From: Cristatella mucedo
Taxonomy: Eukaryota; Bryozoa; Phylactolaemata; Cristatellidae
Reading direction: 5' to 3'
DNA length: 64,000 bases
Assembly (NCBI GenBank): GCA_009760855.2
Contig: WPIO01000047.1
Span: forward strand, 3,116,001 to 3,180,000
Below the pieces are notes generated by a model that was not told where the DNA came from, did no database searches, and saw only the letters and a list, made by a program, of their open reading frames with translations. This document shows positions 2,792 to 37,825 of the stretch, piece after piece. The position numbers were made by a program, and so were the translations under genes. Position 1 is the first letter of the stretch. Each line of letters starts with the position of its first letter.

Positions 2792-2899
2792 CGGTATTAG
2801 CTTGAAATCCTTCGATAGTTGGTTTTTCAGGTGATGTGATAGTCGTTGTGTCTGCTTTAGTTGTCCATACGCCGTCAACATCAGTAGCGGAGGTTCGTC
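2792..2899 (-). CDS. Semaphorin exon 16 (Thr-rich)
   Basis: There are 35 codons with RTSATDVDGVWTTKADTTTI followed by TSPEKPTIEGFQANT, again Thr and Ser rich. The acceptor is TCTAACTTTTAG and the donor ACCG|GTATTC. Entry in phase 1 agrees with the exon at 11482. The 8.6 kb intron between them holds the LINE A cluster and three SINEs. It is either near the end of the protein or continued by the small exons at 2478-2535. Confidence 0.66.
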
Positions 2900-3144
2900 C
2901 TAAAAGTTAGAGCTTCTTACATTGTAATAATTCAGATAAATCTAGCATTTAATTTCTTAACTTATACGGCATTATATTTTTCTCGATATTTTAAAGCTAA
3001 AAACACACACATTTATAAGGAACTAATGCCTATGCTGACCAACGAACTCATAATTGAATTTACATTTTCCTTATGCTATTATTTACATAAGAGTGCCTCA
3101 TCTCTCTGTATAAGATCTAATTGAATGTTAGCTGATTTAACAGC

Positions 3145-3300
3145 CTCATTCTTATATCGGCAGATGAGCCTTAACTTCTATAATTCCCGCTGCAGTTGTC
3201 AATACAGGATCACCCACTGAAGGTTTCCAATCCATGACTTCAGTCGTGAAAAGCGAGCACCTTACCTCTTGGGCTATCAAGGTCTTTAATGAAACCCCGA
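3145..3300 (-). mobile_element. tRNA-derived SINE, decayed
   Basis: On the plus strand it begins GCTGATTTAACAGCCTC, the reverse of the shared SINE 3' end. It then has a degraded box B region (GACTTCAGTCGTG) and a box A-like CTTACCTCTTGGGCTATC. The order matches the better copy at 9475-9645. Confidence 0.5.
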
Positions 3301-3381
3301 CCTGCTAGTAATATGCGCTCAATACTGAAAAGGTGGGCAAAACACGGAGGCAAAAGAAAGTTCATTGGATATAATATACAA

Positions 3382-3387
<6 letters not shown>

Positions 3388-3421
<34 letters not shown>
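3388..3421. repeat. (AT)n microsatellite
   Basis: A pure AT run inside the intron between semaphorin exons 15 and 16, just beyond a SINE. Confidence 0.9.
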
Positions 3422-3424
<3 letters not shown>

Positions 3425-3835
3425 TATAAAACTATTTTTCTCTTTTCCTCACTCAAGATTTGCCTAGTTTTGCAAAGCACAACGATGCATCTCCATTCAC
3501 TTGAACAGCAAAAGCTGTGCAGAACAGAAGGTTTTTAGCTTCTCTTTTTAAATATCTTCGAGTCCAGATATGTGATTTCAGGGCCTTGTAAAGTCATTGT
3601 TTAGGGACCGGAGTAAGCAGATAGAATGGTGGAAAGTAATGACTAATGCGAAACTAATTAGGATAGATAGGCAGACCAGGGCACAATGGCAGAGGGACCT
3701 CGGAGCAGGTGATTCGCAGAATATTGAATTGGGAGCAGTTCTTGATATGCACTCAATGCAGGTTGACTTGCAGTAGTGTAATGTAACAGAATGAACTCTA
3801 TGACAGACGGGCCTAGCTAATGAGCTTTGAAATTA

Positions 3836-3999
3836 CGTCGTCGCTGGTTTGGTATAGCAGTTAAGGTGCTCGCCCCGACCAAGGTCTGACTGAGGTCGTG
3901 GGCTCGAGCCCAAAAGCATAAGTGAAGCGCCTGAATTGAGATTAAGTTCTCTTGGGGCGCTATATAAATGAATTATATATATATATATATATATATATA
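3836..3999 (+). mobile_element. tRNA-derived SINE with LINE A hairpin tail
   Basis: The head is tRNA-like: box A in TGGTATAGCAGTTAAGG and box B in GGGCTCGAGCCC, about 45 bases apart. The tail reads AGCGCCTGAATTGAGATTA then AGTTCTCTTGGGGCGCT. That is the 3' hairpin of LINE family A with a few changes. It ends in an (AT)n run. The tail match suggests that the LINE A reverse transcriptase copied this SINE. Confidence 0.75.
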
Positions 4000-4164
4000 C
4001 ACTAGACCTATTTGTTACGGCACCATACATTAAAGGTGTACGATTTTGAAATTTTAACTTCAATGCTGCGTATTCTGATTACCGATGTACTTCAATTTCA
4101 CACTGCTTGCTGAATATGGCACTCCAGTAATAAGTCGGGCTATATCCTTTGCACTTATCTAACA

Positions 4165-4870
4165 GCGATCGATCTATATAGCTCTTTAGTTCTGTCTCGG
4201 CTTGATTATTGTAATTCCCTTTTGGCTGGGCTACCAAAGAAAGCTATTATGCCACTACAGCGGACTTTGGATATGGCTGCAAGGCTGGTCTTCAAGTCCC
4301 AGCGGTTTGAGCACGTGTCTCCTTTGCTGAAAGAGCTAGAATGGTTGCCGGTTGATCAAAGGATACAGAGCAAAGTTCTTATGCTGACCCAAAAGGCCCG
4401 CCACGGCTTGGCTCCTTCGTATCTAGCTGAACTGCTACATCAGTTTCAGCCTGTTCGCGCCCTCAGGTCCAGTGTGGACAATAAATTAGCTGTCCCATTC
4501 TTCCGCTTAAAGACAGTTGGCGACAGAAGCTTTAGCTCTGCAGGTCCAAGACTGCAGAACTCGCTTCCACAATTCTTACGCAACGACAACTACTCTCCAA
4601 CTGCCGACTATGGCACATCTTTTTCAGCGGTCCTGAACTGCTACTTCTATGCTACTCACTACTTCAACTGCTCTCCTAACTCTGCTATGCTTCCCACTTT
4701 CTCTTTGTTGCGTGAGACGAAGTCTGTTGGCTACCGAATGCGTACCGAAAGCCGCTTAGGTTGTGAGTGGGCTATACAAAACTCTCCTGCGTAACACCCA
4801 CATGGTCTTTATGACTTTGTGGAGTTACTGACGGAGATACATACTGGAAACTGCAGACAAGCTTAATGCT
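4165..4870 (+). mobile_element. LINE family B, 5'-truncated copy
   Basis: Its frame 4222-4794 stays open for 190 codons. It holds the reverse transcriptase C-terminal region: [34 protein letters not shown], then SVDNKLAVPF and RSFSSAGPRL. It runs on to the family 3' end (TTTGTGGAGTTACTGACGGA). The catalytic YADD part is missing through truncation. Among family B copies the reading frame is unusually well kept. Confidence 0.85.
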
Positions 4871-5594
4871 GAAATACCTGTCGCTCTCATTTGATTTTAT
4901 TTATGAAGCCTGTAAGAACTGGATTGGAGTAAATTGAATCTATCTCTTCAATAGAATCCAATAAAGAATTTACTAATTGCCAACATCTCTGGATAAAAAA
5001 TAATGCAATCGCATCCACCCGTGTACAGATACTCTAATTATCTCTTATTCACAAAAGAAAAACTCATCGAATATGTAAGAGCAGCTTTTCAATTCGCTGC
5101 CGTCACCGAATAGTACAATGTATCAACTATAGTTCAATGTGTAAGACCGTATAGGCTCCAATAACCTTTAACAGCATTAGTAGGGAAGGTTTTGAGGTTC
5201 AAGTACCTAGTGCGTGTACATTGGATTTGAGAAATCTACTGTGCTACGAAAAGGCCTCGTGTAGCTAGTAACACCTGTGGAAACTCGTAACTGACTGGCG
5301 GCGATACGCGTGGGAACACGGTCATCGTGCTATCTTGGCAAGAAAATGAAATTATGTCGCGATGTCGTTACGACCAAAGCTTGTTTGGTTGGACACGTAG
5401 GCATTGGTGGGGATGCTTGTAACACTTTTAAAAGCGACCTAGCTGCGAACCATCGAAAGCACGCCTTACGATTGCCCCGTCAACTTGTAAACTCTTGTAA
5501 GCCCAATACCTCTCATAGGGTGCTACCCTGAATGTCGAGAGACACTGCCTGCTTAGAGAGTTTCTCGGTGAATAAAGAGCCTTTTTGCACTTAT
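4870..5594. other. Intron, no feature seen
   Basis: Part of the semaphorin intron 2900-11481. A plus-strand frame at 5310-5531 has no recognised motif. Confidence 0.5.
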
Positions 5595-5960
5595 CTTCTA
5601 AGTTTTAATTTAGATCGCCCAATCCTTTCAATTTCTTAGTGAAGACATGCACTTTATTAGCATCCTGGAACGCGTGGAAGACAATTCAAACGGACCAATC
5701 ATTTACTGTCAGGAACAGGTACACTTCAAAATTCTTCTTAAATATCATCAAGTCAAGGGACATCGTGACATCAGTTGCGAGGGATTTCAACGTTTTTGGG
5801 ACCGTAGGAGCTAAGAGCAGGGTCTCCAAAATATTTCAGGTTTTACGAAGCAAAGCGAAACGAACCGAGTCAGGGCAGTGGGTAGTGCGATGCCAACCTT
5901 GCCTTATTGGGAAGTAGTTCAAATAGATAGGCTGGAGCGAGAGAATGAAGAGTCCTAGAA
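5595..5960 (-). mobile_element. Decayed LINE family A fragment
   Basis: On the plus strand, AAATATCATCAAGTCAAGGG, GGGATTTCAACG and TAGATAGGCTGGAGCGAGAG parallel the inverse of the family A 3' coding region (compare 7905-8100). It is heavily diverged and no frame survives. Confidence 0.5.
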
Positions 5961-6302
5961 ATGAGCTAAGAAGGCTCAAATTTTTTTCGCTGCAGCAATT
6001 TGCGGATAATTAAATGGGACAGCAACATAATTTAAAAGGCGGTTTTTTGTTGGGCTACCTAGCATATCGGGGAAACCTGCTTCTCCAAAAATGAATTAAA
6101 CATTGAGGTATTGTTCCATGTGAAGACAACCTCGATATGCAAAGATCCTGAAACCTTAGAAACGAAAATTTTGTAATCGAGCATCCCATGGCTACTTTTT
6201 ACTAAAATAAACGGAGCTGATTTCCAACCCTCGATATATTGAGGCGATAGATTAGCCTTTAAATTGAGGGCAAAATCTTGGAAGATGTATCCGCAATGAT
6301 TA

Positions 6303-6452
6303 ATAATAATAATGCATTTGATAAAGCGCCCTCGGAGAACTGAATCTCTCTCTAGGTGGTTTACGTTTTCTGCAATAGGAAATGCAATTGAATGGTGAGT
6401 AATATCATGCTTGATAAACAAACAACATAAAAAACATGGTCAGGGGTGACAT
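6303..6452 (-). mobile_element. LINE family A 3' end only
   Basis: It starts with (AAT)n and the inverse hairpin (AAAGCGCCCTCGGAGAACTG), followed by about 110 bases of the family 3' region up to GGTCAGGGGTGACATG. It is directly followed by the next copy, so two 3' ends lie in the same direction 150 bp apart. Confidence 0.8.
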
Positions 6453-6454
6453 GT

Positions 6455-7768
6455 AATAATAGTAATCATAAAAATAATGTACTTGATAAAGCGCCCTCAG
6501 AGAACTTAATCTCTTTCTATGCGCTTTACATTTGCTGCAAAGGGAAATGCAATTGAATGGTAAGTGAAATCACGCTTGAAAAATAAATTATATGAATAAC
6601 ATGGTTAGGGGTTACATGCACAGGGTCAGCATGCAAATGTGGTTAGTGGCACCATGCACAGTGTCAGCTCGCATAAGCACGTGAAAGACGAATCACATGG
6701 ACCCACTAAATTCTGTCCTAAATAGGTGTGTTTTTAAGTTCCTTTTGAATGTGGTCTGGTCAGTGGATGTTCTGACGCAGGTCGGGAGGGAGTTCCAGGC
6801 TTTGGGAGCAAGCATACACACTAAATCCACGGTCTCCAAAGGATTTAAGGTTTGTATGAGGTATTTCTAGACTGTTGGATTCCGAAAAGCGGCTGGTACG
6901 ATGCTTGGCCTGAAGGAGGAGTATGTCGGACATATAGACTAGAGCCATAGAATGAAGTGACCTAAAAGCGAGCGACAAAACCTTGAAGTCAATCTGTTGC
7001 TTGACTGGTAGCCAGTGCAGGTCGGCGAGAAGTGGAGTAAGGTGGCAACTGCGACGCTCACGACAGACAAGTCTAGCTGCAGAGTTTTGCACCAGCTGCA
7101 ATCGCCTGATCGCATATGCTGGTAGGCCAGTAAGCAGTGAGTTGCAGAAGTCGAGACGAGATGTCACGAATGCATGGACCAACTTGGACGTGGTATCCTT
7201 ATCTAAACAAGCCCTAATTTTAGCAATGTTATGAAGCTGAAAATAGGCAGATTTGACTGTGGAGCTGATATGGTCGTCCAACGAGAGGTCACTTTGGAAT
7301 ATGACACCTAGATTTCCAGCTGATTTAACCGGAGATGTGCTGACAGAGCCAATTTTGAGAGACAGCCTTTTCATCCTCTGAATAACACTCGGTTTGCCAA
7401 TAGCTAGTAGGTTAGTTGTATCATGGTTTAGTTTTTGTAAATTTGCTGCCATCCATGTGCGGATGTCATCAATGCATGCAGCAAGTGAGTTGAGAGAATT
7501 TGAGGTGCTCGAAGGCTGGGAGGGGTCAAAGCAAAGGCACAACTCAGTGTCATCCGCATAGAAGTGAAAGCATAGATTGTGCTCGGCAATCACATCAGCA
7601 AGAGGGAGAGTATAAACCGTGAAAAGAACCGGACCTAGCACGGAGCCCTGAGGTACTCCATATTTCAGAGGTACTTCAGATGATCTTTGTCCATTCACGT
7701 CAATACTCTGGAGTCTCCCACTGAGATAGGACCTGAACCACTGCAGAGCAGTGCCAGTGATGCCCAGG
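6455..7768 (-). mobile_element. LINE family A, longest open copy
   Basis: The frame 6760-7698 (312 codons) keeps reverse transcriptase motif B ([14 protein letters not shown]) and the catalytic YADD ([12 protein letters not shown]), then the long C-terminal region ending in SFGDRGF. A frameshift replaces the usual last residues. The 3' end carries the hairpin and (AAT)n on the plus strand. It is 5'-truncated in the RT domain, so no endonuclease is present. The clade assignment (CR1/L2 group) is inferred from the RT text and the 3' microsatellite. Confidence 0.88.
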
Positions 7769-8443
7769 CGACATGCACAGGGTTAGCATGTAAATGTGGT
7801 TAGTGGCAGCATGCACAGTCTCAGTACACATAAGCTCATTAAGAAAGAATCACAGGGACCTACTAAATGCTGTCCTCAGTAGGTGTTTTTAAGTTATTTT
7901 TAAATGTGGTCAGGTCAGGGGATGTTCTGACGCAGGTCGGGAGGGAGTTCCAGGCTTTGGGAGCATACGAACTAAATCCACGGTCTCCAAAGGATTTGAG
8001 ATTTGTACGAGGTATTTGCAGACTTTTGGATTCCTAAAAGCGGCTGGTACGATGCTTGGCCTGGTAGATGAGTAGATCTGAGAGATAGGCTGGAGCCAAA
8101 GAATGAAGTGACCTACAAGTGAGCGAAAAAACCTTGAAGTCAATCCGTTGCTTGACTGGTAACCAGTGCAGGTCGGCGAGAAGTGGTGTGATGTGGCAAC
8201 TGCGAAGCTCAAGACAGACAAGCCTATCTGCAGAGTGTTGCACCAGCAATCGCTTGATCACACATGCCGGTATGCCAGTTAGCAGTGAGTTGCAGAAGTC
8301 GTGACGGGATGTCACGAATCCACGGACCAACTTCAACGTGGTATCTTTATCTAAACAAGCGCAAATTTCAGCAATGTTATATAGCTGAAAGTAGGCATAT
8401 TTGACTATCCAGCTGATGTGGTCGTCTAACGAGCTGGAAAACA
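7769..8443 (-). mobile_element. LINE family A fragment lacking its 3' tail
   Basis: It repeats the 3' half of family A directly behind the previous copy. It starts at the GACATGCACAGGGTTAGC region, without the hairpin or microsatellite. Frames 8034-8444 and 7910-8221 hold parts of the RT C-terminus (LPVKQRIDFKVF) in broken frames. The missing tail suggests that the 6455-7768 copy inserted into this one or that a deletion joined them. Confidence 0.82.
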
Positions 8444-9474
8444 TTGCAGAGAGCTTAGAATGGAAATTGAATCAGTAACGTCAATAGTTTGCAGCATTAC
8501 CAGCAGTAAATTGACTCGTTATGTGAGAGAACGTATTTTTATTACATGCAGCCTGAATTCTTATTCGAAGCCGGGCTCGCTTTCTTTAAACGTGGAATCT
8601 ATTGGAAACAGTATAATTTGGAGCTTGAAAATTCAGAAAATTACAAAGTTTGCCCAGCGCCAGCATTTATGAGACGCTGTGGACTCTTTCCATTTGAAAC
8701 ACTTCAGGAAAATAAAGAATGATTAAAAGTCAAAATTGAAAGAGCAGTCATAACGGCGAGATAATTCTGCAAATATTTGAAGACGCTGTGAGAAGCTTTG
8801 AGACAGTACGCTTGCGTACTGCAATTGACGTATCGGTGAATCACTTTCGGCGCCATAATGAGTAGCTCATAAGTGAACTATTTCTAGCCAAGGCTTTCAT
8901 CTTGAAAGCTTCACATATTAGAAACTCTAATCGACGGAAATTAAGATTTAAAGTACCCGAGAACAGAGACAGCAACCGTTTTGTAATGAAAGCCCTTGGA
9001 AGCTCAGGACTCAGTAACGTCGAAGACTAAAATACTTTTTCTCCTGGCTCACGATGAGCCAGAGGAATAAGCGTACTATTCTCAGTAAATTTTTGAGACT
9101 GTATATTTCTTGTCAACCCGATAAATTCATGAAGGTAATCCAACAATTCTGGTCCGAATTTGGTTCTATCATGCTAGCGAATCGAAGCGAATGTGCTAAA
9201 AGAAATATGGCTAAAACTTTCCTTGCAAACGTCTGAGAACACCAATTCTGACATCATAAAACATGTATGTCATGTCTCGTGCCTTCCATCATTTAGCGTT
9301 GAGAAGTTGATTCAAGATATAATGCTGCTTGATACTGATTGACATCCAATTGACCTCTGATCCTCAGCGACGATTTATCTCTGGCAGCGAGTGCTTTGAG
9401 TCAGCACATCTGTCGAACAAGAGACTTTGAAAAACAAGGACAGTGACGCTCACTCTCCTTATCAAGAAAAACTA
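8444..9474. other. Intron, no feature seen
   Basis: Part of the same semaphorin intron. Short frames at 8460-8672 and 9054-9236 on the plus strand show no family resemblance. Confidence 0.5.
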
Positions 9475-9645
9475 CAAGCTGATTTACCAGCCTCTTCTTT
9501 TGCGAGACAAGAGCTCTGACGGTTATAACGTCGCTTGCAGTGGCAATAGAGAATCCCCCACTGCTGAATTCGAACCCACGACCTCGGGACCGAGGTCATG
9601 AAAGGCAACCGCTTTAGCTAGTGTGCCATCGCGGCTGGCCTACAA
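9475..9645 (-). mobile_element. tRNA-derived SINE, well preserved
   Basis: Read on the minus strand it starts GCCGCGATGGCACACTAGC (box A-like TAGCTAAAGCGG follows). It has box B GTGGGTTCGAATTC and ends in the conserved AGAGGCTGGTAAATCAGC. It has no LINE A hairpin, so it belongs to a different tail type from the SINE at 3836. Confidence 0.78.
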
Positions 9646-10364: not shown

Positions 10365-10440
10365 TAATTATAATAGTAATGAACATGATAAAGCGCCCTC
10401 AGAGAACTCAATTCCTTTCTAGGCGCTTTACATTTTAGTA
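10365..10440 (-). mobile_element. Solo LINE A 3' hairpin
   Basis: Only about 75 bases of family A are present: (AAT)n-like sequence, then ATAAAGCGCCCTCAGAGAAC and TTTCTAGGCGCTTTACATTT. The hairpin arms are intact. It is an extreme 5'-truncated insertion. Confidence 0.75.
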
Positions 10441-11481: not shown

Positions 11482-11542
11482 CTTCGCTTGCTATGGTAGG
11501 CAAGTAATGCAGTGCTGATGTCCCGGTCATAGCTGAAGTTGG
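11482..11542 (-). CDS. Semaphorin exon 15 (stalk, 61 bases)
   Basis: There are 20 codons plus one base: PTSAMTGTSALHY then LPTIASE. Composition is the same as in the exon before. The acceptor has a strong pyrimidine tract (TTTTCCTCCTCGCAG) and the donor is GCGAAG|GTTAGA. Phase is 0 in and 1 out, fitting both neighbours. The exon is small, so splice sites and phase carry most of the weight. Confidence 0.66.
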
Positions 11543-11753
11543 CTGCGAGGAGGAAAACTCTTTGCTAGCGAGAGTTTGCATTGAGATGCCCATTTTTTCC
11601 GTCAAAGTAATAGTTTCCACATGGGGATTGAATCTTGAAGTACTTGAAAAACGTCTGCTAAACGATAAGGTGCACGTATAAAGTTCTTTAGTTGCCCAAG
11701 ATCTCAGAACTGTGAACTAAAATATGCCAAGGTGTGGCTTGCTCAATTGCTAC

Positions 11754-12340
11754 TTGCCTCGTAGTTGTAAAAACGCTAGTGATTTCTGTCGCTGCTTCAA
11801 TGGAACGAGTGGTCTGAACATCACTAGAAGCTGAGCTTAAATTCTCCTTTGCAGCTCTTGGAAGATTTGCAGAGTAGGCTGTTCGAACTGTAGGCGGATA
11901 TGGGGTGCTGGAATTGGCTGGCTTCACCCCGTCGGGTTCAAAGGTGAGCATCTCTGACTCTCGTGCCTCCGATAAATGTTCTCGCGTCGATTGCTTTTCA
12001 GCAGCAGCAGCAGCTAGATCTGAAGTACCTCTTAATGGACCGAAGGACGCTCTGTAAGAGACGTGCTTCACTGCTGAAGACTGTGAGAATGTCTGGATTA
12101 AACTATGGCTAGCTTTCATGTGGTCAGTAGATGCCACAGTCTGGAGAACTTGTGAAGATCTTGGGGATTCATTTTCATAAAATGAAGAAGCTGTAGCCAG
12201 TGGCTTACTCGCTGCAGACACATAAAACCTCTCAGTGTAGCTGGAAATGTTAAAAGCGTGTGATTTTGAACCTAACGAATTAAATGGCAGTGTGTGCGAG
12301 ACTTCAGCCGTTTCATCATCCTTCTGACATGTAGTGGGCA
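11754..12340 (-). CDS. Semaphorin exon 14 (mucin-like stalk, 195 codons)
   Basis: This is the longest exon. It starts VPTTCQKDDETAEV and is dominated by Ser, Thr, Ala and Pro, with only one cysteine near the start and no hydrophobic helix. That suggests an extracellular O-glycosylated spacer. The acceptor is GTATATTTCAG. I placed the donor at AGGCAA|GTAGCA because the phase then fits the next exon. The adjacent AG|GCAAGT is a perfect GC-AG type donor but would put the next exon out of frame. Without splicing, the frame would end at 11688. Confidence 0.78.
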
Positions 12341-12479: not shown

Positions 12480-12653
12480 CTGTGTGATCTGAGTTGCTTG
12501 ATGTTGATCCAATAAGGTCATTTTCTGCTTCTTTGTCTGTATAAGTCAGTTGGGTGTTTTTATAGGATTCTGAGCCGGAAGTGGACATGCTACCAGGGTT
12601 TTTCGCTCTCGTGAGGAAAGTTGCTCTTGTAGGTATCGGGATTTCATGCGTGG
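12480..12653 (-). CDS. Semaphorin exon 13 (Ser/Thr-rich stalk)
   Basis: There are 57 codons directly after the PSI domain, with THEIPIPTRATFLTRA at the start and LIGSTSSNSDHT at the end. The composition is Ser, Thr and Asn rich with few hydrophobics, as in O-glycosylated stalks. The acceptor is CTTGTTTCTGTAG and the donor CACAG|GTTCGA. Phase is 1 on both sides. The frame stays open past the donor into the intron, so intron retention would extend it by about 27 residues. Confidence 0.8.
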
Positions 12654-14811
12654 CTACAGAAACAAGAAAGTTGGATTTGGTAATATTAGAAAATTTCTGA
12701 AATTCGAGGTCAATACTTGGGCTTTGTTCGTAAGAATTATATCAATCTAGAATTTGTGTCACATCATCTTACAGCATACGCAGAGTCATTCAATTTCAAT
12801 TTTATTGTTTAAATGTGTTTTAGTGATTTGGCGACATTCTCATTTGCGAGCATACTCAAAGTCCTGCGTAACCAAATACCACTTGCAGTGCGAGAGTTTA
12901 TGCAAAATAATTCTTGAGTTGCCTCAAGAATCGAAAACATAAAAATATAAAAATTCAGCTCTATTTTCAAACGAGCCTCAGTGATACATTTACTAAATCG
13001 GCATTAAAATAGAGCGACAACTGACTGAGAGGTGTTTCAGAGCCTGGAGAAAGTGTGTGGGCGTGCAAAACCTTAGCTCTTTTCCTTCTACTCTGCCTAC
13101 CGCTTGCTGCGACTTTTCACTAGACGGTCTAGTAAAAAGTGTAAGATTTCTGAAAACAAGCACTTTTTACCGTCCTTTACAAACCTGATGATATTGGCAC
13201 CTGCGGTTTTTTAAACCGACCTAGTAAGCGGAGTTTATTTAAATTATTTCAGTTACTTTTGCAAAGCAAAAGTGGTTCCCTACCCAAGCGAGACTCAATG
13301 AACGGTGCTTAAATGATACAGGCAGGCGAAGCAGCACTCCTGTGCAGCGTCTCGGAGTTTTGTAGTGAAACATTTAAGTAGCTGGCGACATCGAAGTGAT
13401 GCAGCACCTAGAAGTTTAGTGCGCAGGTATATGTACGGAAATGAAGGACGTTTAGATTATGGCAGATGCATCCGACAGCAACGAACATGCATTAGTAGCA
13501 TTCTGAAATCGATGCTCAAATTTCGTAGAACCTCGTGTACAGACAAGCCGATTGAAAAGCTTAAGCGTTCCGTGTGCCCAGGAGGCTTAAAGTAGCAAAT
13601 AAGCTTAAAAATAGGCTCCCATACTAATGACTCAGAAGTTTCGCTCACAAAGCTCTGTCAAAAGAAATTAAAAATTAAGCTTATGGATATAGGATATTAA
13701 GGCTTTAAATTTAGAAGCTCTTTAGGACTGTATCACGAGTTCCACCAGGAGGCTGTGCCAACCTAGAGTTGAAGTCACTGAAATTCCTTCAAGCGATACA
13801 CATTAGCATCAGTGCCGTGCTATCCGTGTTGAGTATTTCTGTAAAAGCTGGGATGAAAGCTTAAAGGAAAGGTGGTCTAGCCGAAACATCTCAGCAATGG
13901 TAGCAAAGTTTTGCTGGACCGCTTGGATAGGGTAATTTGGGACACTAGGTTCAATAACACGTGCGAAAACTAAAACGCACTTTTAATTTAGCAGATGAGC
14001 AATGAGTTGCAAGCACTATGTGGAAAAAGAAAACTACAGATTTTAGAAGGCAGTATCCGTTTCCTGTATTCTGCGATCGGGTAGCTGGGGCACTCTCACC
14101 CGTAGGCCGGCGGAAGACGGCTTAAGCACCTAAATGAATAGCCTTAACTGTGCGAATATAGATTCAGCCATCTTATGGCGCCGTGCAAACGACCTATTGT
14201 ACCTACCACTTCACTCGCTTGCACCAGCCAACTGATTCGGCCATCTTATTTTTCCAGTGTGCTCTGGCACCAAAAGCACCCCTGCATCTAGTCATCTCTC
14301 ACTAAACTGAAATCTTGTGATGATTGAGCCTTCAGCTCGTATGAATCGAGAGTCTGCATCCCTCTTCCGGCTACGGTCACTATTTTGCTAATCTTTTTGC
14401 ATAGCCTTTACGTTTCGGCTAACGACTAATCTCTCCACTAAGTTATTCATTCGCCCTCACTGAACTTGTCTGTTTCTGCTTGGGTTGGCTTTGAGTAGAT
14501 ACATGTGCTTTATTCAGTACTCCTTACTCGCAAGAGGTCATACAAATCGGCCGACTAGATTTTTTTCGTGTTTTCCTAACAAGCTAGCTTAGGAATTGTA
14601 TTTTATTTGGCTTTCGTGTTCCTGATACTGATATTGTTCCTGATACTGATTCCTGATACCCCTCGGGTATTGAATATCTTGTAGTGATATATTACGCACC
14701 CGTTGAGCGGTTAAGTTTTATTTTTGCAATATTCAAATAACCTGTGGTTCTTGTTATTTATACGGCCGGCTTTAAATTGCTAGTACAAAAAAGCGTATTT
14801 TTTCAGTTACT
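12654..14811. other. Intron, little structure
   Basis: The semaphorin intron between exons 12 and 13. TTCCTGATACTGAT is repeated about three times near 14620-14660. Frames at 13365-13595 and 13457-13648 overlap on opposite strands and are not supported. Confidence 0.5.
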
Positions 14812-17141: not shown

Positions 17142-17436
17142 CTATAGTAGGACGGTACACATTGACGAAGCTCTAAATCCCAAGAGCAGTAGGGGTCTCT
17201 CAGTGCAACGCACGAGACGCAAGTCCGCCAACGGCTGCACGTTTCTACGGAAAGTTTCACTACGCTGTCAAATGTGTTCACGAGCAGAACTCGTGACTCC
17301 GTTGGATTGTTCAAAGTGACCAATCTGAGCTCGCCAACAGACTTTTCATCTACGGTGAATGTTCGACTCTCAATAATAGTGAAGGTTGCTAGGCTACTCG
17401 GGCCTATATTGACGAGCTTTAGTATCCTGCCGTCGT
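17142..17436 (-). CDS. Semaphorin exon 11 (end of sema, start of PSI)
   Basis: It starts DDGRILKLVNIG, the last sema blade, and runs into the PSI domain: CSRWRTCVSC followed by ALRDPYCSWD and QCVPSYY. The PSI cysteines and the RDPYC.WD core are intact, making this the firmest family identification here. The acceptor is TAATTGTAG and the donor TATAG|GTGAGA. Entry phase is 1 and exit phase 2. Confidence 0.95.
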
Positions 17437-17516: not shown

Positions 17517-17599
17517 CAGTTCCCACGTGAAGAATGTCATAGTGCTTGCCGCTCTGTGCCTTTACTTGCCAGTCGACTGCTATCTGGGTCATGGTGTAT
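17517..17599 (-). CDS. Semaphorin exon 10 (YTMTQIAVDW)
   Basis: There are 27 whole codons between single joining bases: YTMTQIAVDW, then QVKAQSGKHYDILHVGT. The family equivalent is YT.IAVD......G..YDVLFIGTD. The acceptor is AATTTACAG and the donor ACTG|GTAAAA. Only 80 bp separate it from the next exon, and the join gives HVGTDDGRILK. Confidence 0.92.
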
Positions 17600-20002
17600 C
17601 TGTAAATTGAAAATCGTTAATAAAAATATCACAGTTTAGCAAGCTGCCTTTAAATAAGAACTAATAAAATTCTAATTTTTCCATTAAGCAGGCGGACTTT
17701 TTAAAGCAAAAATCAGCTTTGGCTAGTGATTATATCGGAGTTGCAGTAAAAAAAAACTTAATCCAACCCAAAGGTGCCAGATTTTAACGTCTCATCGATA
17801 CTGTAGTTTCTATAGCCATTTTTCGGAGAGTTGACTAATTATTCCAATGAAAATAGTGTGTGCTGGAATCTGCATGGACTCTTCGAGTTATAAGCGTCAT
17901 CAACTGGGTCGCCAATGATACAGAGGCGCCTGCAAATTTCTATTCGCTTTTTTCTCCTCCACTGAGCGTGGTCAGCGTCGGGTGAGAATTTCAGATAGGA
18001 AAACGTACGCGGGGCTTAACTCCTGAGCTGTGTAGCTTAAGGTAGATGCGTCATTGCTCTCGCATGCAGAAAGGCAAGCCGCTCCATCAGTAACAATACG
18101 GCACCGAAATTTTTCTGAGCAAGACTAAGTGCGGCCGCCGGAATTGTGCTTTTCCCACGTTGCTGCTAAACCTGTACAGATCAATGCAGGATGCAGAATG
18201 TAGCTTAATGATGCGGCATGTCTTAAATTGCAACCTGCTACCTTCTAAATTAAATTATATGAGAGCTATCGATATCAACTCGTGGCAACGAAAACGAAAG
18301 AAGTTTAAGGCTTAAAGCAACCTGAAGTGACCTCGTTTAGTCTTTACTTGTGAAGAAGAGAATCCAAGCGATCAGTTTTCAAACATTTATTCGGAAATGA
18401 GGTTATTCCGAATACCATCTAGTCGACAGACTATTATCTTATAATTCTGGATTTGAAGTTTTGATCCTGCTAATTGCTACATTGCCCGTCGCTTCCTAAA
18501 AAAATAAAAACGTGCTATAAATCTATTAAAGCTAAGGGAGAAGACACGCTGGCCAGAAAAATGCCATTCAGAAATTTAAGTGACACCACTTCCCTGCATG
18601 ACCTCTACGTGACTGATGGCAGCCATCACAGTTGGTGGAGCCGAATCAATCAGTTCAGCCTGAATCGAAGTGTTGGCAGCAGCTGTCGGCAGCGTTGATA
18701 AAAAGATCTTTCTTATGAGATTAGGAGCGGTGGCAGGTCAGGCCGACGAGGCTCCAGTGTGGCTGAAATCGCATCTCTAAGGCAGCCGCTGCGTCCGTTC
18801 CGTGCCGCTCGACGATCGGGTCCCGCCGGAAAATCCGCTACCTGCGGAATTCCACGAGTGTACTTTCGAGGTCTGTTTCCGCTTTCAGTATGTAGCTCTC
18901 CTCTTGAGGGGCTAGCTTGAACCAATATAATTTGCTTTCACCTTTCTGTCTTGAGGACATACAGCTGCCGTTACGTCATTCGCATCGTTATCAAAGTCTT
19001 ATGCGGAGATTTAGTTCTCTTTAGTTCTCTTAGTTTTACAAGTGCCTTGTTCTTAGCATTATTATATTACTTACACATTCAGTGGTGGTTCAGAAACTGA
19101 ACGCCTACCTTGCAAGCGTTGTGATCTAAATTTTTGAAAACTTCTTTTAACTTAAGTGTGGAAAAACCTAATTCGTGCAGATAAATTGGAACCCTAAATA
19201 CGTACAGCTGACTCCAGCAACTTTTCCTCCACCAATTGCCGCGCTCTGTAATTGAGCAGATTTGCCTTTTAAGTTCTTTCGTTGCTAGAGCGGCTGTGTA
19301 AGCGTGTACGGTGAGCAGCGGCTGCCGTTCGAGCAGCACGAGCAGTATGACTGGCGCAGTGCCAGCAGCAGCAGCAATTGTAACAGCTGCTACAGCGACC
19401 CCAGCTATGCCACTGAGAGCATGGCCGCTGAACTCTCAGAGCCGAAGCTAACGATTCGGGCGGAGCGTCCTCAGCTTTCCAGCACGCTTCTTATAAATCC
19501 TGCTTGCCCTAATAAGAAATTTCTTTGCCTCTATCAGGTATCTTCTAGAGGGTTGATGCGGTTCTTCTTCATTTTACCTAGTTCGGCACCACGCAAGTTC
19601 CGCGATACCAAAGCGGCTAGCGTCAGATTCCACCGGAGCCTGCGTTCCTTGAGATATCTCAAATCCGTTAAATGGTATTCCTGTGAAACAAAATTATTAA
19701 CTGAGAAAGAGGACATATTTAAGGGACTTCCAATTACATTGCCTTCTTTTTAACCTCACCTGTGATCTGTCTGGAAGAAAATTGGTTTGTTTGTAATTGG
19801 CTTCACGCTAGGGATCAGCAGCCTGTCGTCGTAATACTCAAGGGTATCGGTTCGGTTCATAGTATTGTCGCACTGCCATTAAAAAAAAGAAGCGAAATGC
19901 CTTTTAATGCAAGCGAGTAGTTTTTACCGTTACACTCGTATTTTCCCTGTACATTTACATTAACTACGCTTTCTTCTAAGTAATTCCTTTGGCTTTTTAT
20001 AC
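17600..20002. other. Intron with several unexplained open blocks
   Basis: Between semaphorin exons 9 and 10. Besides 19279-19521 there is a minus-strand block 17972-18114 behind TTGCTCAG (FRCRIVTDGAACLSACESND), and a GC-rich stretch 18700-18930 open on both strands. None has an assigned family and none fits the semaphorin chain. Confidence 0.4.
19279..19521 (+). CDS. Unrecognised exon-like block, plus strand
   Basis: A GC-richer open block lies behind a pyrimidine-rich acceptor (TTCTTTCGTTGCTAG) and ends at CTATCAG|GTATCT. It reads CVSVYGEQRLPFEQHEQYDW, then a Ser-Asn-Cys run and YSDPSYATESM. I recognise no family. The opposite strand is also open here and reads as a hydrophobic alanine-rich helix, caused by GCA/GCT repeats, so the coding strand is uncertain. 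It sits inside the semaphorin intron between exons 9 and 10. Confidence 0.28.
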
Positions 20003-24177: not shown

Positions 24178-24364
24178 CGTTGCCGGATGCCGCAACGGTC
24201 GAGCTCTGACTCGGTCAAAGTCTCGTATTTGAAATCCCCTCTGCCATTGAGGCGAAGCCGGGTCATAACTGTTGCTGCTGTCAAGCATGTAAACGGGACC
24301 CCTGAATGCTGCGTCAATAAGTCTATGCTCAAATGCACAGATTGCAGATCCACGGATAGAATTC
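24178..24364 (-). CDS. Semaphorin exon 8 (GSAICAF segment)
   Basis: There are 62 codons after one joining base. It starts NSIRGSAICAFEHRLIDAAF and carries a W (PQWQRGF), matching the family GSAVCAF......F.G.F.......W. The acceptor is excellent (a run of eight T, then CTGCAG) and the donor is ACG|GTGAGA. At its end RVRARPLRHP takes the place of the usual VP.PRPG.C, without the cysteine. Exit phase is 0. Confidence 0.88.
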
Positions 24365-25099: not shown

Positions 25100-26405
25100 T
25101 AGATTGAAAATAAAATCGTATGCATATGGCAGGAATCACTGGCTCTGCTCTGCAGTGGTTCAGGTTCTATCTCAGTGGGAGACTCCAGAGTATTGACGTG
25201 AATGGACAAAGATCATGTGAAGGACCTCTGAAATATGGAGTACCTCAGGCCTCCGTGCTAGGTCCGGTTCTTTTCACGGTCTATACTCTCTCCCTCTTGC
25301 TGATGCGATTGCCAAGCACAATCTAGGCTTTCACTTCTATGCGGATGACACTCAGTTGTACCTTTGCTTTGATCCCTCCAAGCCTTCGAGCACCTCAAAT
25401 TCTCTCAACTCACTTGCTGCGTGCATTGATGACATCCGCACATGGATGGCAGCAAATTTTCTATAACTAAACGATGATAAAAACCAACTTACTAGTTATG
25501 GACAAACCCAGTGTAATTTAAAAATTGGAATGTCTGAAGCTCAGAATTGGCTATGCCAGCATATCTCCAGTTGAATCAGCTCGAAATCTCGGTTTCAAAG
25601 CGACCTCTCGTTAGACGACCATATCAGCTCCACAGTCAAATCTGCCTACTTCCAGCTTCATAACATTGCTAAAATTCGGGCTTGTTTAGATAAGGATACC
25701 ACGTCCAAGTTGGTCCATGCATTCGTGAAATTCCATCTCGACTTCTGCAACTCACTGCTTACCGGCATGTGCGATCAGGCGATTGCAGCTGGTGCAAAGC
25801 TCTGCAGCTAGGCTTGTCTGTCGTGAGCGTCACAGTTGCCACATTACACTACTTCTCGCCGACCCGCACTGGCTACCAGTCCAGCAACGGATTGACTTCA
25901 AGTTTTTTTCGCTTAATTTTAGGTCACTTCATTCTTTAACTCCAGCCTATCTTTCAGATCTACTCACCCACCAGGCCAAGCATCCGACCACCAGCTTTTC
26001 GGAATCCAGCTGTCTAGAAATACCTCGTACAAACCTCAAATCCTTTGGAGACCGTTCATTTAGTTCGTATACTCCCAAAGCCTAGAACTCCCTCCCGACT
26101 TGCGTCAGAACATCCCCTGACCTGACAACATTTAAAAAGCTTACCTATTTAGGACAGCACTTAGTGTGCTCCTGTGATTCGTCCTTCATGTGCTTATGCA
26201 TGCTGACACTGTGCATGGTGCCACTAACAACTATTGCATGGTGACCCTGTGCATGTCACCCCTAAGCATGTTATTCATTTTGTTTGCTTATCAAGTACGA
26301 TATCATTCACCATCCAATTGCTTTTCCCTTTGCAGCAAATGTAAAGCGCCTAGAAAGAGATTGAGTTCTCTGAGGGCACTTTATCAAGTTCATTCTTATT
26401 ATATA
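25100..26405 (+). mobile_element. LINE family A copy with frameshifts
   Basis: It starts in RT motif B ([15 protein letters not shown]), shifts frame just before the catalytic YADD (codons near 25335) and resumes at 25783-26085 with RLVCRERHSCH and QQRIDFKFFSL. The 3' end has the hairpin (GCGCCTAGAAAGAGATTGAG, then GAGGGCACTTTATC) and a short ATT run. The first hairpin arm is intact, while the second has GGCACTTT in place of GGCGCTTT. Confidence 0.85.
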
Positions 26406-28005: not shown

Positions 28006-28093
28006 CTATGGGTGTTGAATACGCCATACAGCATCTTCTGCTTCGAGCCTCCGTCACCAAACACACTTCCGGTGCCCAGCTTTGAAGCGCCCG
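28006..28093 (-). CDS. Semaphorin exon 7 (YGVF segment)
   Basis: This short exon of 88 bases encodes a glycine-rich loop and then QKMLYGVFNTH, the family motif LIYGVFTT. The acceptor is GAATTTCAG and the donor CATAG|GTAAGG. Entry phase is 1 and exit phase 2. It joins the next exon as NTHRNSIRGSAICAF, closely following the family order TTPVNSI.GSAVCAF. Confidence 0.88.
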
Positions 28094-31365: not shown

Positions 31366-31799
31366 TGTTGTCGAAATTACTAGTACAATGATCTTTAGCT
31401 TTCTGCTTTCTTTATAATTTTTTATTTTTAAGCCATGGCCGCAAGTTTCCGCTTACGCGCGTACCCAATTCCAATAGACGCCCTTTCTTAATACAAAAAA
31501 AGATGTTACTTGTAATTGGGAGCAGAGAAGCCACAACTAATTATGCCCGGTTGTGGGACCCCATCAACTACAGGCCTCACTCCGGTCGAAGCTGTCAACG
31601 CATCACTGACCACGTGAAAGATCCCCCGAGGGGTTTTCTCCGCGCCTTGAATGCTTGGATGCATGCTTCGTCTGTAGCGGGTCTCTGGAATTCGCCTGAC
31701 TAAGAGCAAGCTGCGTGAGAGAGCTGAGACGAGAGCATCGTGAAAGCAACGCCCTAGAAATACATCCTCAGCAGATCGGAAACTTTCGCTGTACGCTAC
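31366..31799. other. Intron with a GC-richer block
   Basis: 31503-31709 is open on both strands (minus: IFHVVSDALTASTGVRPVVD). It abuts exon 6 but does not fit the semaphorin reading. Confidence 0.4.
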
Positions 31800-32111
31800 C
31801 TATTTCATCGAAGTAGAACGTATGAAATCCAGCGTTATTTATAGTGTTTAAGTCGTGGTGAACAAATCTTCCCTCGACAGAGCATTCCAGTGACGCCTTA
31901 AATAGAGTAGCGAAGAGCATTGCACCATCTGTCTCCTGCAGCAGCTGTTCGTGTGACATGTCGTCTTTACATGCTCTAGCAACTCTCGACACACTCTTGT
32001 ACAAAAACGGAACGAGTTCTTGTGCCACTTCCGTAAATATCCAATAGACATGCTGATCCGATTCAAAGTGTGTGAGGAAGTTTGGGTATATTCGACTATC
32101 ACGCGACGCTC
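31800..32111 (-). CDS. Semaphorin exon 6 (central sema domain)
   Basis: This 312-base exon is the best sema match in the window. It encodes DSRIYPNFLTHFESDQHVYW, then IFTEVAQE, SVSRVARACKDD, FKASLECSV and finally FYFDEI. These equal the family motifs NAPNFV....VYFFFRE, YSRVARVCKND, FLKARLNCS and FYFNEIQS. The acceptor has a run of T (TTTTTTTCTACAG) and the donor is AATAG|GTAGCG. The insertion of about ten residues before FYFDEI is unusual. Both ends are phase 1. Confidence 0.93.
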
Positions 32112-32164
32112 CTGTAGAAAAAAAGAAACGTCATAGTTCCTAATGTATCGGCATACATGCAAAG

Positions 32165-34345
32165 TGATTTAATTTATCTCCGTCTGCAACTCCACAAAGC
32201 CACACAGACTATGTGATTGTTCAGAAGAAGTGTTTTGTTTAGCTCACTCACAGCCTAAACTGCTTTCGGTACGCATTTGGTAGCCGACAGACTTCACCAT
32301 GCACAACAAACAGAAAGTTTGATGCATAGCAGAGTCAGGAGATCAGTGAGCAGTTGAGGTAGTGAGTAGCATGAAAGTATCAGATCGGGACCGCCGGAAA
32401 GAATGCGCCATAGTCGGCAGCAGGAGAGCAGTTGTCGTTGCATAAGAATTTTGGAAGTGAATAACAGTCTAGGACCTGCACAGCAGAGGCTTCTGTCACC
32501 ATCGGTTATAAAGCAGAGGAATGGATCAGCTAATTTATTTCCAGAGAGGAACTGAAAGCACGAGGGTGCTGAAACTTATGCAGCAGTTCAGTTAGGTATG
32601 AATGAGCCAACCTTTGGCGAGCATTTTGGGTCAGCCTAAGAGCTTTACCTCTGTAGCCATCAATCAACTGTCAGCCATCCAAGCTTTTCTAGCAAAGGAG
32701 ACTAAAGTTCAAACCGCTGTAGTATGTGTGAACTAGCCTTGCAGCCATATAGATTACCAGCCGCATCGGTCTACTGGCCTTTTTGCAAGATCATCTAAGA
32801 TGGATATGCAACGATCTGATTGCCGAATCAGAACCGAAGAAAAACTTAATTTCGTGCAAGCAACTGTGGAATACAGTTCCTAATCCTAGATAGGGATCAA
32901 ACATCGTTTCTAGCTGTCGAAGCAGTCTTCTGAACGAAGCTTTTAAATGTAGGCAGTTGGCGAAGACGACACCTAAATTCCGAGCACCTGGTAATGGTTG
33001 CAAAGCACCATCACCTAACAGAAGACCAAAGACTTCCGATTCAACCACACGCTTATGTTTTCCTATGAGCAGCAGTTTAGTTTTATAGTTGTTTAGTTCT
33101 AAGAAAACTTCCGACATCCAGTATCGTATGTCTTCAAGGCAAGCATTCAGTTTATCAGTTGCAGCAGCAGATTTCAACGGTTTAAATAAAAAATACGGCT
33201 GAGTATCGTCAGCATAAAATTGATCTATCTGGATGAAACCGGACCCCACCCACGTCAAAGTACGAACACGACCAAAAACGTACGATTTAAGTCATGCCAA
33301 CGCCTGGTCTGCCAGACCGAGCGTTGCTCACAATTATTCAAGTAGGAAATCGTGATCGGTGGTATCGAAAGCAGCTAATTAATCTGGCAGTACTAGGGCA
33401 GTGACATTCCCGTCATCGTTGCTGCATAGGATGTCATGGTTTGCCTGCCTGTAGCCAAACGATTCATGAATAGGAATTGCAACACCTCCACCAACCTCGC
33501 TCGATTGCATTGACTGATAGAATGAGATTCCGGGTGGGGTGGTCTCAGATATGCAGCTCCGGAGCAGGGCGTCATCTTTATTTTGGTAAGTCGATCCGCG
33601 ATGGCAGACTAGGTAGTGCCGTTTCTTTCAGGACCTCGCTACCGAGGTCGTGGGTTAAAATCCTGCAGCGGGCGATCCTCAATTGCCGCTTCTAGCTGCA
33701 GTGCTAGCCTTTTAAGGCTCTTCTGTCGCTATACAAGAGGTGGCTGTTAAATCAGCTTGAATTATTTAAGCAGAAACGCAAGTACCTTATCCTGGACAGC
33801 CTGATCGCGAATAAGTAATCCCATGGTTTTGAGTAAGCGGACATGTTGCTGGGAAAACTTAAGAGACTGTCCAGTGACCGTGCGACGCCGATTAAGGTGC
33901 TGGTATTCTAGTCGGCATATATCCGGCCTATCAGACGCACTCTTCAAATTTAAATTAGAACTTAGTAAAGGTCCCGGTCGACTTTTTACAACATGATGAG
34001 GCACGGCAAGCGAGCTACTACCCCAATGAGCGCTAATCGGCGCTTTAAACCTAAGGGTCATAGGTTTGATAGCCGAGCTGTTGATAGGGCGAACGAAGGA
34101 TGAAGAGAGGTTCTAAATTACTGGCCGAAGTAGGCCCACAGGTAGGTATCGACAAATGATGCCATCGCACCTTCTGCTAAGCAGGTCCTGTTTTGAGTTG
34201 CATATCCGAGGACAGCTCGTAAACGGTCCCAGCGAAGATAGCAGCGGAATGTCCGATGGTGTCGCGTAGAAGTCAGGTAAAGGTCTACAAGGCACTCAAA
34301 GTCGCCTAGGGCAGCCGCTCTCTAGCGAGAGGAGGAATCATTTTC
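32165..34345 (-). mobile_element. LINE family B copy with internal deletion and SINE insertion
   Basis: The 3' half keeps a YADD remnant (FYADDTQPYFLFKP in 32791-33258). It then jumps near 33440 to the endonuclease end of the element (33393-33575 and 33762-34061, the latter with LLKTMGLLIRDQAV). A SINE sits at 33588-33765. Its 5' limit coincides with that of the 47.5 kb copy, so both probably reach the true 5' end. Confidence 0.8.
33588..33765 (+). mobile_element. tRNA-derived SINE inserted in LINE B
   Basis: The head reads CCGCGATGGCAGACTAGG, box B is altered (GTGGGTTAAAATCC), and the end is GGCTGTTAAATCAGCTTG. It splits LINE B between GGTAAG and CAGAAACG, which are continuous in the 47.5 kb copy. 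Flanks show similar TTATTT...TAAG text, possibly an imperfect target duplication. Confidence 0.78.
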
Positions 34346-35759
34346 AGAGCGGTCTCGACATTTTAAGTGAACTAAATTGATCCTATTTAAAAACAATTAC
34401 TTGACATTTGGTCTCTAACCCACATATGTCTCCTTGTATTCTTCGAATAGCCCATTCCACTAATACTGGATCCAATTTTCGTAGCCTTGCTCGCTCAGTT
34501 AGAATAGCAGTAGATGCGCTTGCAGGATTCGCTTCGATTTACCTCGGTGTGCATAAATTTCGGGCACCGAAAAAAGATGACTGGTTATTAGTAACTATTG
34601 GCTGTTCTAGAAACGTTCAATGGCAATAGCCAAGAATAAAGCTGTGGGTTGGGTGAGCCTTCTACCTCTGGGCACTGTTTTCCTTCCTCCTTCGTCTGGC
34701 TATGTGGGCGAATGCAGCGAGCCAGCCGACACCGAGCAGCCTTGTGAGGCTTCATAGTTATCTAATACGTCCGAATCGATGATCAGCGCGAACGACCACG
34801 AGAAGTTAAAGTACCAAATAAAACCTTATTGGACTGCAAGAGCCGTTAGGACTTTTCCAGTCTCTGCTTTTGTGCTTTTAATTTCTTACGGCGCATCTGA
34901 AAGGGGCTTTAGCATGCACCCAGTTTCCATCTTGCCATCACGATCAAGAGCAATTCATCCGAAATCTTACGCCCCTCGAACCTGTAGGTCTTCACGAGTT
35001 ACTTATACAGTATGGCGGCTCTTGCCCCTCCCAAAAATGTCAGCTCTTGGAACACTATTACGCGTTTTTCAATTGTTTTTCCGCATTACTGTCGGCCTTT
35101 TAATGCTTTCTTTAATCGTCGCAGTGCCGATGTTTGTTTGAGCAGATGGCGTGAGTGGACACTCGAGGAGCGATTAATTCAGGTAGGTATGCCAGAACCA
35201 AAGCGCTCTGACAATCAGGCATTTAACGTTACTCACAAAAATTAGTTTCTGATATGCTGTCATATTCCGAATGATCCAGATGTTATAGTCACTGCTGACG
35301 CGACATGTGTAGAGTTACCAGCAATTATAGCCAAAGCTTTAAGCGACAAGTCTTTAAATGACCTCAAATGCTTCAGCTGACTGAATAATATATCGGTAGC
35401 AGAGCTGAAGCCGGCTAACAGTCTATGAGTCTACGAGGCGCCTTAAAAACATATGGCAATTTTTTAGCTGATTCATACTAAGTGCTTAGAGCCACTTTTG
35501 GAATAGTTGCTATCGGTCAGATTATCGCTCTAGAATTTTTTTCTAATTACTGATCATGGTAACGTAAATCGCCTACAATCAACTCGAGATGTTGGCAAGC
35601 CACTGCAATTTGCTACTAAATTTACTCTTGCATAATTTACCAACCTTCTAAACTTTGTGAAGTAAGCAAATTCATGCATCATCAAAATAATTACGGCCTA
35701 GATGACTACACCAATGATCTATTTATGCTGCTTGTTTTTAAAAACCTCAGTTCACTTAC
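34346..35759. other. Intron with overlapping unassigned frames
   Basis: Two overlapping plus-strand frames (34779-35141 and 35012-35245) are open. The first has hydrophobic text near its end (TVGLLMLSLIVAVPMFV). No splice-based case can be made. Confidence 0.35.
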
Positions 35760-35909
35760 CCCTGTCATTTACTCTGAACCGAGATATGCCTAAAGGAGAA
35801 TCGCCAGTGCGTAGTGATGCGCCAGATTCATTCAAGGAAGCTCTGTAGATCAGACATTTAAACGCCGTGAAGAAGTCCAGCACGCAGCCTCCGAAATAGG
35901 CCAGCAAGC
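35760..35909 (-). CDS. Semaphorin exon 5 (VxDF and LRT segment)
   Basis: There are 49 codons flanked by two bases at the 5' end and one at the 3' end (phase 1 in and out). It reads LLAYFGGCVLDFFTAF followed by CLIYRASL and SLRTGDS. This follows the family order LY.GTV.DF...D..IYR...LRT. The acceptor is AAGGCCCAG and the donor is a strong GGG|GTAAGTG. The piece between LRT and the next exon is longer than usual. Confidence 0.82.
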
Positions 35910-36011
35910 CTGGGCCTTAAAAGATCACGTAGCACTTCTAAGCTTTACGTTGCGTAATTGTTGAGCACACGCCTAGAGATATTAGTATCACTCAAAGCAT
36001 CGAAACCTTAC

Positions 36012-36114
36012 CGGTGACGAAGGAAACTGAATTCATCCATGGCAGCGGTGGTGCGAAAAAAGTGCTCTTTACTCCAAGTCGGTTGGTTCCACTGGAACTT
36101 AAATTCCAGCGTGC
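36012..36114 (-). CDS. Semaphorin exon 4
   Basis: There are 34 codons plus one base, entry phase 0 and exit phase 1. Splice sites are strong (TTATTTTCAG| and CACCG|GTAAGG). The text includes NRLGVKSTFFAPPLPW and NSVSFVTG. The second part lines up with the family segment G.CPFDP..N.TS...G that precedes the next blade. The usual cysteine of that segment is missing, so similarity is weaker here than in neighbouring exons. Phase agreement on both sides is the main support. Confidence 0.7.
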
Positions 36115-37262
36115 CTGAAAATAAGGAATACAGGATAAATATTTTTACAATTGCAAATAGGTTTTTTCTCATGAGACAGTTCAGCAATCATCTATGGCAT
36201 AATTAGGTTTAGAGGTAGCCCTTGAAGATGTAAGAAAAACTCCAACTTCGTTTTGGAAGGTTCGTGCCAGTTTAAGCTGATCTAGCAGTTAGTTCCAACC
36301 TACTTATTTCCAAGCTTATCCATGCATAGTCAATGGAGCGAAACTTATATAAGATTAGAAATGAAAGCATATTTCAAAATTATATGTAAAGATTTTCTTA
36401 TACAACGAACATGCATCTAATGTTATTAAGCTTATTTGTCTGAACTGAATAGCAAATCAGCAGTGAGTTCCTTGAACGGAATGTATGGATGTGCTAATCA
36501 TCCTTAAATTTTACATTAACTAATAACTATATATTAAAAGTACACAACAACCAACCATGCATAGACAAGTAGGAAAAAGCACATAAGAAGATTCTAAGTG
36601 TTACCGGTCATAAGGACCAATAGTTATTTGCAACGGTGAATTGTGCTCACGTAAGCATGCTAAAAAACACAGGAATTACAGGAAAACCGACATTTTTACT
36701 CACTATATACGTCATAATCTATAGTTTAAAAAGTACAGCTGGACATTTAGAGTGTTAGTCAGTCAGTTAAAAAAACTGAGCAAAATAGACGCGTCTTCAA
36801 CCGAAACTGGTACGACGCAAAGTCAATGCAGCTGGATACAGTAGCTGGAAGCAAGTTCCAGACTTCCTTTCATTCAAACTGAAGGACCCTACCACCAAAC
36901 CATTTCTGTTTATTCGTGCAACGCCCCGCGATAGTGAATTTTGAGCGTGACTTTTAACTGAAGATTGCTTAATAAATAGCCGCGATTGGAAGGTTTAGTA
37001 GCGGTCTACAGGAAGTTACGTGTCGCACCACTTATAATGTAAAGTAAATTATTTGTGCTGTTGCGATTTCGGTATTTTTAATGGAACTGCTTGTGGAATA
37101 GCGATGAAATGTTTTTGCCGCTTCGTCTGTTTAGAGCTCCGGGTCTGTATATTTTGCATGCATTGCATTAATGCTGCCTTTATCCTATATTTAAAAAAAA
37201 TAAAATGCGTCGGAAATATCCTATTATACTAGCTCAGCTAAAATGCACTTGCTGTAGCTTAC
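36115..37262. other. Intron with possible LINE remnant
   Basis: 36755-37060 has inverse text (AGCAAGTTCCAGACTTC) resembling the family A 3' region at very low identity. The rest is AT-rich. Confidence 0.4.
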
Positions 37263-37376
37263 CTCTGCCGTTAGATATACAAGACTCTTGCACGAGGCCT
37301 GTCCGGCATTGCTTCCGCATATCAAAATCTCTTCGTTGGAAATCGGAAGTACTGTCCGAATAAAGTTTTTGTGACA
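37263..37376 (-). CDS. Semaphorin exon 3 (NFIR and CGSNA motifs)
   Basis: The exon has exactly 38 codons, in phase 0 at both ends. It starts CHKNFIRTVLP and continues to EEILICGSNAGQASC. These are the two most recognisable N-terminal sema motifs, normally C.NYIRVL and LLVCGTNAF.P.C. Joined to the previous exon it restores the conserved pair of cysteines around C.....C.NFIR. The acceptor is TACCGCTAG and the donor GCAGAG|GTAAGC. The intron on the 5' side is 107 bp. Confidence 0.88.
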
Positions 37377-37483
37377 CTAGCGGTATAAAACATTTATATT
37401 GAGTTACCATTAAGTAGCAAAAAAAATCAAAAAATCAGAGCTGCGATTAGAAGGTTTAACGCAAATTCACCATAAGCTAATAC

Positions 37484-37622
37484 CTGAGAAAACCCTGCTT
37501 CAATTTTTCGCATGAGTTCCCGACAGCCTGTCCTAAAACTGCTCGAGCGCCCAGCGTCGACAGGCATGTAAACTTCTGATGTTGCCGTCATGTTGCCGAG
37601 GCTCACGTTGAACATTTTATCT
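37484..37622 (-). CDS. Semaphorin exon 2 (sema blade 1)
   Basis: It encodes 46 residues beginning DKMFNVSLGNMTATSEV, which joins the previous exon as GAR-DKMFNVSL, the usual semaphorin GAR..V.N.SL pattern. It ends with CRELMRKIEAGFSQ, corresponding to the C.LKGK segment of the family. The acceptor is GACCACAG and the donor TCTCAG|GTATTA. The intron on the 5' side is only 106 bp. Entry phase is 2 and exit phase 0. Confidence 0.85.
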
Positions 37623-37728
37623 CTGTGGTCGACCACGCAGAGTGGCTCAGCTATTCATGACAGTTTCGCTTGCTAAGAGAACGTACGAAGGTGGCAAAAG
37701 ACGCTTGCTATCTACACGTGAAATTTAC

Positions 37729-37825
37729 CTGGCTCCAATAAGTACGAAGGATTCTCCTTCCTGAAGAAATCGAAGCCATTTTTCTTTTTTTAAGGGATCC
37801 GGATCAAAGACGGACAGCAAAGAGC
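37729..37825 (-). CDS. Semaphorin exon 1 seen (start of sema domain)
   Basis: The exon encodes FDPDPLKKEKWLRFLQ followed by EGESFVLIGAR, which matches the first sema blade (family pattern F..L......LLVGAR). The donor is clear (GCCAG|GTAAAT) and leaves phase 2. The frame stays open further upstream to about 37930 with a GC-rich sequence including PYICHVAHAGAGG, so the 5' limit is uncertain. I chose the acceptor TTCTGTAG at 37826-37827 because it has a pyrimidine tract. No methionine lies in this frame, so the initiator must be in an upstream exon. Confidence 0.68.

Follow-up and report, generated by a model that had tools for sequence, protein, structure and literature searches.

A probable intact, class-1-like semaphorin gene with short, phase-matched exons in the bryozoan Cristatella mucedo

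The window, i.e., the whole stretch of 64,000 nucleotides of Cristatella mucedo DNA that was analysed, carries on its minus strand a semaphorin gene with a core of 11 exons running from 37825 to 17142 (Table 1). All introns of this core are of the GT-AG type, its ten internal junctions are all consistent in codon phase, and its 559 codons (1,681 bases) contain neither a stop nor a frameshift. The reading preferred here, with a probability of roughly 0.7, is that of an intact, fast-evolving, class-1-like (Sema1/Sema6 type) animal semaphorin gene, the product of which is probably a monomer or a weak dimer.

The core was built by a profile search that used four solved semaphorins and allowed splicing in all three intron phases, after which the boundaries were set by eye. 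An earlier note on this DNA had suggested a spliced semaphorin search, and the search scored above every control. The true 30 kb scored 80.4 at the strict and 223.4 at the lenient setting, whereas the best of 16 controls (the plus strand, the sequence reversed, the 40-64 kb region on both strands and 12 Markov shuffles) reached 26.7 and 44.5, respectively; the laxest setting gave 293.4 against a maximum of 101.8 among 10 controls. Because the true profile scores exceed all control scores, it is certain that the semaphorin gene as a whole lies beyond chance. Three exons were recovered in the strict run, and most of the chain, together with some spurious micro-exons, in the laxer runs. Simple searches led to the same place. 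An 80-aa open piece on the minus strand at about 32.1-31.9 kb matched Semaphorin-2A (E 4.5e-5), and tblastn with a Sema6A query returned this piece and four more, colinear, with E from 4e-5 to 0.32, along with many chance matches at higher E. The mean splice-site scores of the core were 4.23 for donors (− 4.75 for all GT) and 2.80 for acceptors (− 3.22 for all AG of the same strand), a comparison that is partly circular because the profile runs used these scores.

Table 1. Exons of the semaphorin gene model and reverse transcriptase pieces in the window
Feature	Position	Strand	Length (nt)	Evidence and remarks
Core exon 1	37729..37825	-	97	Sema domain start; EGESFVLIGAR matches Sema1b/Sema1a
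Core exon 2	37484..37622	-	139	Profile run to 37499 (GC donor); extended by eye to in-phase GT donor
Core exon 3	37263..37376	-	114	tblastn E 0.002; profile runs
Core exon 4	36012..36114	-	103	Moderate support; only in laxest full run; good splice sites and phase
Core exon 5	35760..35909	-	150	Moderate support, as exon 4; LIYR...LRT Sema-like
Core exon 6	31800..32111	-	312	Sema; phmmer E 4.5e-5 (80-aa piece); tblastn E 2e-5; profile runs
Core exon 7	28006..28093	-	88	Sema; profile runs start at 28048; moved by eye to 28093
Core exon 8	24178..24364	-	187	Sema; Pfam Sema 19.9 bits alone (below cut-off); profile run
Core exon 9	19760..19872	-	113	Sema; strict and lax profile runs
Core exon 10	17517..17599	-	83	Sema, class-1-like VDWQVKAQSGKHYDILHVGT; Pfam Sema 21.9 bits alone (just below cut-off); strict run
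Core exon 11	17142..17436	-	295	Sema end and first part of PSI; Pfam PSI 30.7 bits; strict run
Tentative 3' exon	12480..12715	-		Ser/Thr-rich; phase fits; acceptor very poor (-7.3); no Pfam match
Tentative 3' exon	11758..12340	-	583	Ser/Thr-rich; GC donor; phase fits
Tentative 3' exon	11482..11657	-	176	Ser/Thr-rich; phase fits; no Pfam match
Tentative 3' exon	2792..2899	-	108	Ser/Thr-rich; phase fits; ends at weak donor (-1.5)
Tentative first exon	44608..44710	-	103	Signal-peptide-like; out phase 1; no homology support
LINE reverse transcriptase pieces	6763-7782, 7920-8459, 47827-48746, 57735-58160, 58478-59389	-
LINE reverse transcriptase pieces	25132-26070, 60137-61007	+

Nine of the 11 core exons are well supported, with core exon 11 backed additionally by its GT donor and phase. 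The 5' boundary of core exon 1 is uncertain, and the profile run began this exon at 37760. The weakest part of the core is formed by exons 4 and 5, which are not significant by similarity alone: with the search confined to this stretch of profile and of DNA, the true score was reached by 6 and 10 of 80 shuffles under two lax settings, and by 72 of 80 under the strict one. Both were kept because, in matching phase and with good splice sites, they close a gap where exons are expected. If exon 4 is right, the CPYDP motif would read APPLP in it, a difference on which no claim is based because the shuffle test weakened the support for this exon. Several alternatives within the core were discarded. 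Short extra exons placed between 37263 and 32111 by the lax runs were rejected, because 35760 can be joined to 32111 in phase without them; at 37499, a GC donor was dropped in favour of the GT at 37484, which preserves the frame; and the start of exon 7 at 28048 gave way to 28093, which completes the codon begun at 31800. An open piece at 34321-34121, first taken for a Sema exon, had no Pfam match. The claim that several exons are short held, since six of the 11 measure 83-114 nt and would therefore be missed by an ORF listing alone.

The introns were said to be filled with LINEs. Reverse transcriptase pieces do lie in several of them, but "filled" is strong wording for repeats that, in a self-comparison giving a lower bound, cover 23% of 2792-44710 (27% of the window). 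Two LINE open frames exceed the Pfam RVT_1 cut-off, and no open frame in the window is longer than one LINE piece of 340 aa. The 16 exons, 11 core and five tentative, are all free of repeats detectable inside the window. A tandem array of a 15-bp unit (9.3 copies, 93% matches) occupies 51857-51995, and a 165-bp unit present twice in direct orientation at 6303-6618 resembles LINE tail sequence. A 23-mer taken from a repeat had no match in genome_contigs or viral_contigs, sets that may not include the genome of the window itself. Scans of the window gave neither a tRNA nor an Rfam match at gathering scores.

Downstream of the core, a chain of four tentative exons that keeps the phase adds 368 aa, 31% of which are Ser and Thr, compared with 16% in the core. 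The second of these exons (12340-11758) lies inside a 223-codon open frame, which is longer than any stop-free run in 100 Markov windows (longest, 211). The consistent phase, the shared strand and this open frame argue that the chain belongs to the gene. However, the splice sites are weak, including the donors of the first and last of the four exons, a gap of about 4.4 kb follows the PSI exon, and the tentative, incomplete 368-aa tail has no Pfam match, TSP1 and Ig included. Codon-usage scoring of the 3' candidates was uninformative, the core averaging 0.21 bits/codon and the top of 46 candidates being a LINE piece. The chance that these Ser/Thr-rich stretches are part of another gene or no exons at all, with the semaphorin continuing elsewhere, is substantial, if somewhat below even. 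Should the tentative 3' exons be real, the intron 11757-11658 would be of the GC-AG kind (GAG|GCAAGT). Exon 2899-2792 ends at a donor, and therefore the gene would continue beyond coordinate 1; likewise, the modelled exons contain neither a membrane segment nor a final stop, so that the gene probably extends past the edge of the window. Among the listed titles and abstract openings (12 of 272 and 10 of 14), none describes a semaphorin with a Ser/Thr-rich stalk, a basis too thin for calling such a stalk unprecedented.

Upstream, the signal-peptide-like exon at 44710-44608 is the only such candidate in 26,160 bases, with none on the plus strand; Markov shuffles yielded 0.15 candidates on average and at least one in 10 of 100 cases. 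Including this exon would bring the minimum span of the gene to 41.9 kb. The earlier note had described sixteen phase-matched exons over about 35 kb, between 37825 and 2792. A chain of 1 + 11 + 4 exons can be built, which makes the number plausible but unproven, the first exon and the four 3' exons having no homology support. Phase matching applies to all ten core junctions and is also seen in the outer exons. The two outer coordinates recur in the 16-exon chain, but the true 5' end and the 3' part are unproven, and a genuine 5' candidate would make the gene longer than 35 kb.

The order of a Sema domain followed by PSI on the minus strand, also claimed before, is borne out by the 11-exon chain. 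The joined 559 aa matched Pfam Sema (PF01403) with 94.9 bits (cut-off 23.7) and, after it, PSI (PF01437) with 27.1 bits (cut-off 23.1), covering only positions 1-30 of 52. A possible remainder of PSI near 13.5 kb, read by eye, was dropped, its phase not matching. Among seven single pieces compared with Pfam, three fell in the semaphorin family (two Sema just below cut-off and one PSI above) and four matched no Pfam family, two of these four being candidates or frames that were later dropped.

Among the 21 listed solved sequences (E up to 0.001), the best matches were the class 1 chains 6fkk (136.8 bits, E 8e-39) and 6qp9, Drosophila Sema1a (136.6 bits, E 9e-39), followed among those listed by Sema6D (107.4 bits), Sema4D (98.5), Sema6A (94.0), Sema3A (91.4) and Sema2A (89.7). 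The PDB entry 6fkk, listed as MIP07328p, is what we take to be Drosophila Sema1b. This assignment also fits the Phe in its loop described in PMC6695400. The window protein shares Sema and PSI, 33% identity and a Phe at the interchain-Cys position with Sema1b, and differs from it by Glu-Cys-Ser in place of the Asn-Cys-Ser glycan site, a longer loop before FYFDE and the tentative Ser/Thr-rich tail. With Sema1a it shares 34% identity and a common motif order, but Sema1a has Cys where the window protein has Phe. The vertebrate Sema6A and Sema6D likewise have Sema and PSI at about 33-34% identity, with scores lower than those of class 1. Since class 1 ranks first but identity to the four references is 33-34%, while these share 42-66% among themselves, the gene is class-1-like yet divergent. 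The joined protein is a semaphorin by both Pfam and the solved homologues, and the proposed class 1/6 type is supported, with Drosophila class 1 ranked first among those listed.

A semaphorin of another or lineage-specific class, such as class 5 or a secreted form (e.g., echinoderm Sema-SP or Sema-SI; PMC6374515), appears rather unlikely. PMC6374515 names Sema1, Sema2 and Sema5 in the surveyed protostomes and reports extra secreted classes in a starfish; class 5, of which the 21 solved sequences include no chain, and the echinoderm classes lie outside the comparison, and no membrane segment is seen in the modelled exons. However, the class 1 chains stand about 29 bits above the next class among the listed solved sequences, and neither TSP1 nor Ig was matched in the tentative tail. 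A paralogue silenced or relaxed only recently, its frame still intact, i.e., a young pseudogene, would account for the strong divergence, the weak similarity of exons 4 and 5 and the missing rest of PSI, but is quite improbable in view of 1,681 core bases free of stops and frameshifts and the good core splice sites.

The gene is a new, fast-evolving and divergent member of the well-known semaphorin family, and otherwise an ordinary animal gene. In viral_contigs, the semaphorin gave two pattern matches, neither confirmed as a relative. The word semaphorin occurs 17 times in PMC7016691, a paper on an endogenous shrimp nimavirus. The present gene contains introns and resembles a host gene.

The residues that bear on dimerization both lie within the well-supported exon 32111-31800. 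In a gap-free part of the alignment, a Phe of the window protein is aligned with the Phe in the 6fkk loop NFGK; further along, Glu-Cys-Ser stands opposite Asn-Cys-Ser, so that the conserved glycan site is lost. The position of this site, N314, was found by counting 35 residues along the Sema2A piece, starting at the NCGK-loop Cys, which was assumed to be Cys279. The Cys at the Phe position links the dimers of Sema1a, whereas Sema1b, with Phe, is monomeric. No interchain disulfide is therefore expected in the window protein, and, because the dimer-contact glycan site is gone as well, the predicted state of the protein is probably monomeric or weakly dimeric, as for Drosophila Sema1b.

For the preferred class-1-like gene, the phase-matched exons encode the Sema propeller and the first part of PSI. 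A signal peptide would be supplied by the putative upstream exon, a Ser/Thr-rich extracellular stalk may follow PSI, and a membrane anchor would lie outside the window. As predicted from this layout, the protein would most likely sit on the cell surface and signal via a PlexinA-type receptor, guiding cells or axons. A bolder proposal, which we consider doubtful, is a lineage-specific class-1-like semaphorin in which the interchain Cys and the glycan site of the dimer contact have both been lost and which bears a long mucin-like stalk, making it a naturally monomeric guidance ligand with altered plexin signalling. The analysis bears out that raw sequence can suffice for the correct reading of a gene with many exons. 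For the family, the gene adds to Drosophila Sema1b a second candidate in which signalling by monomeric semaphorins could be studied.
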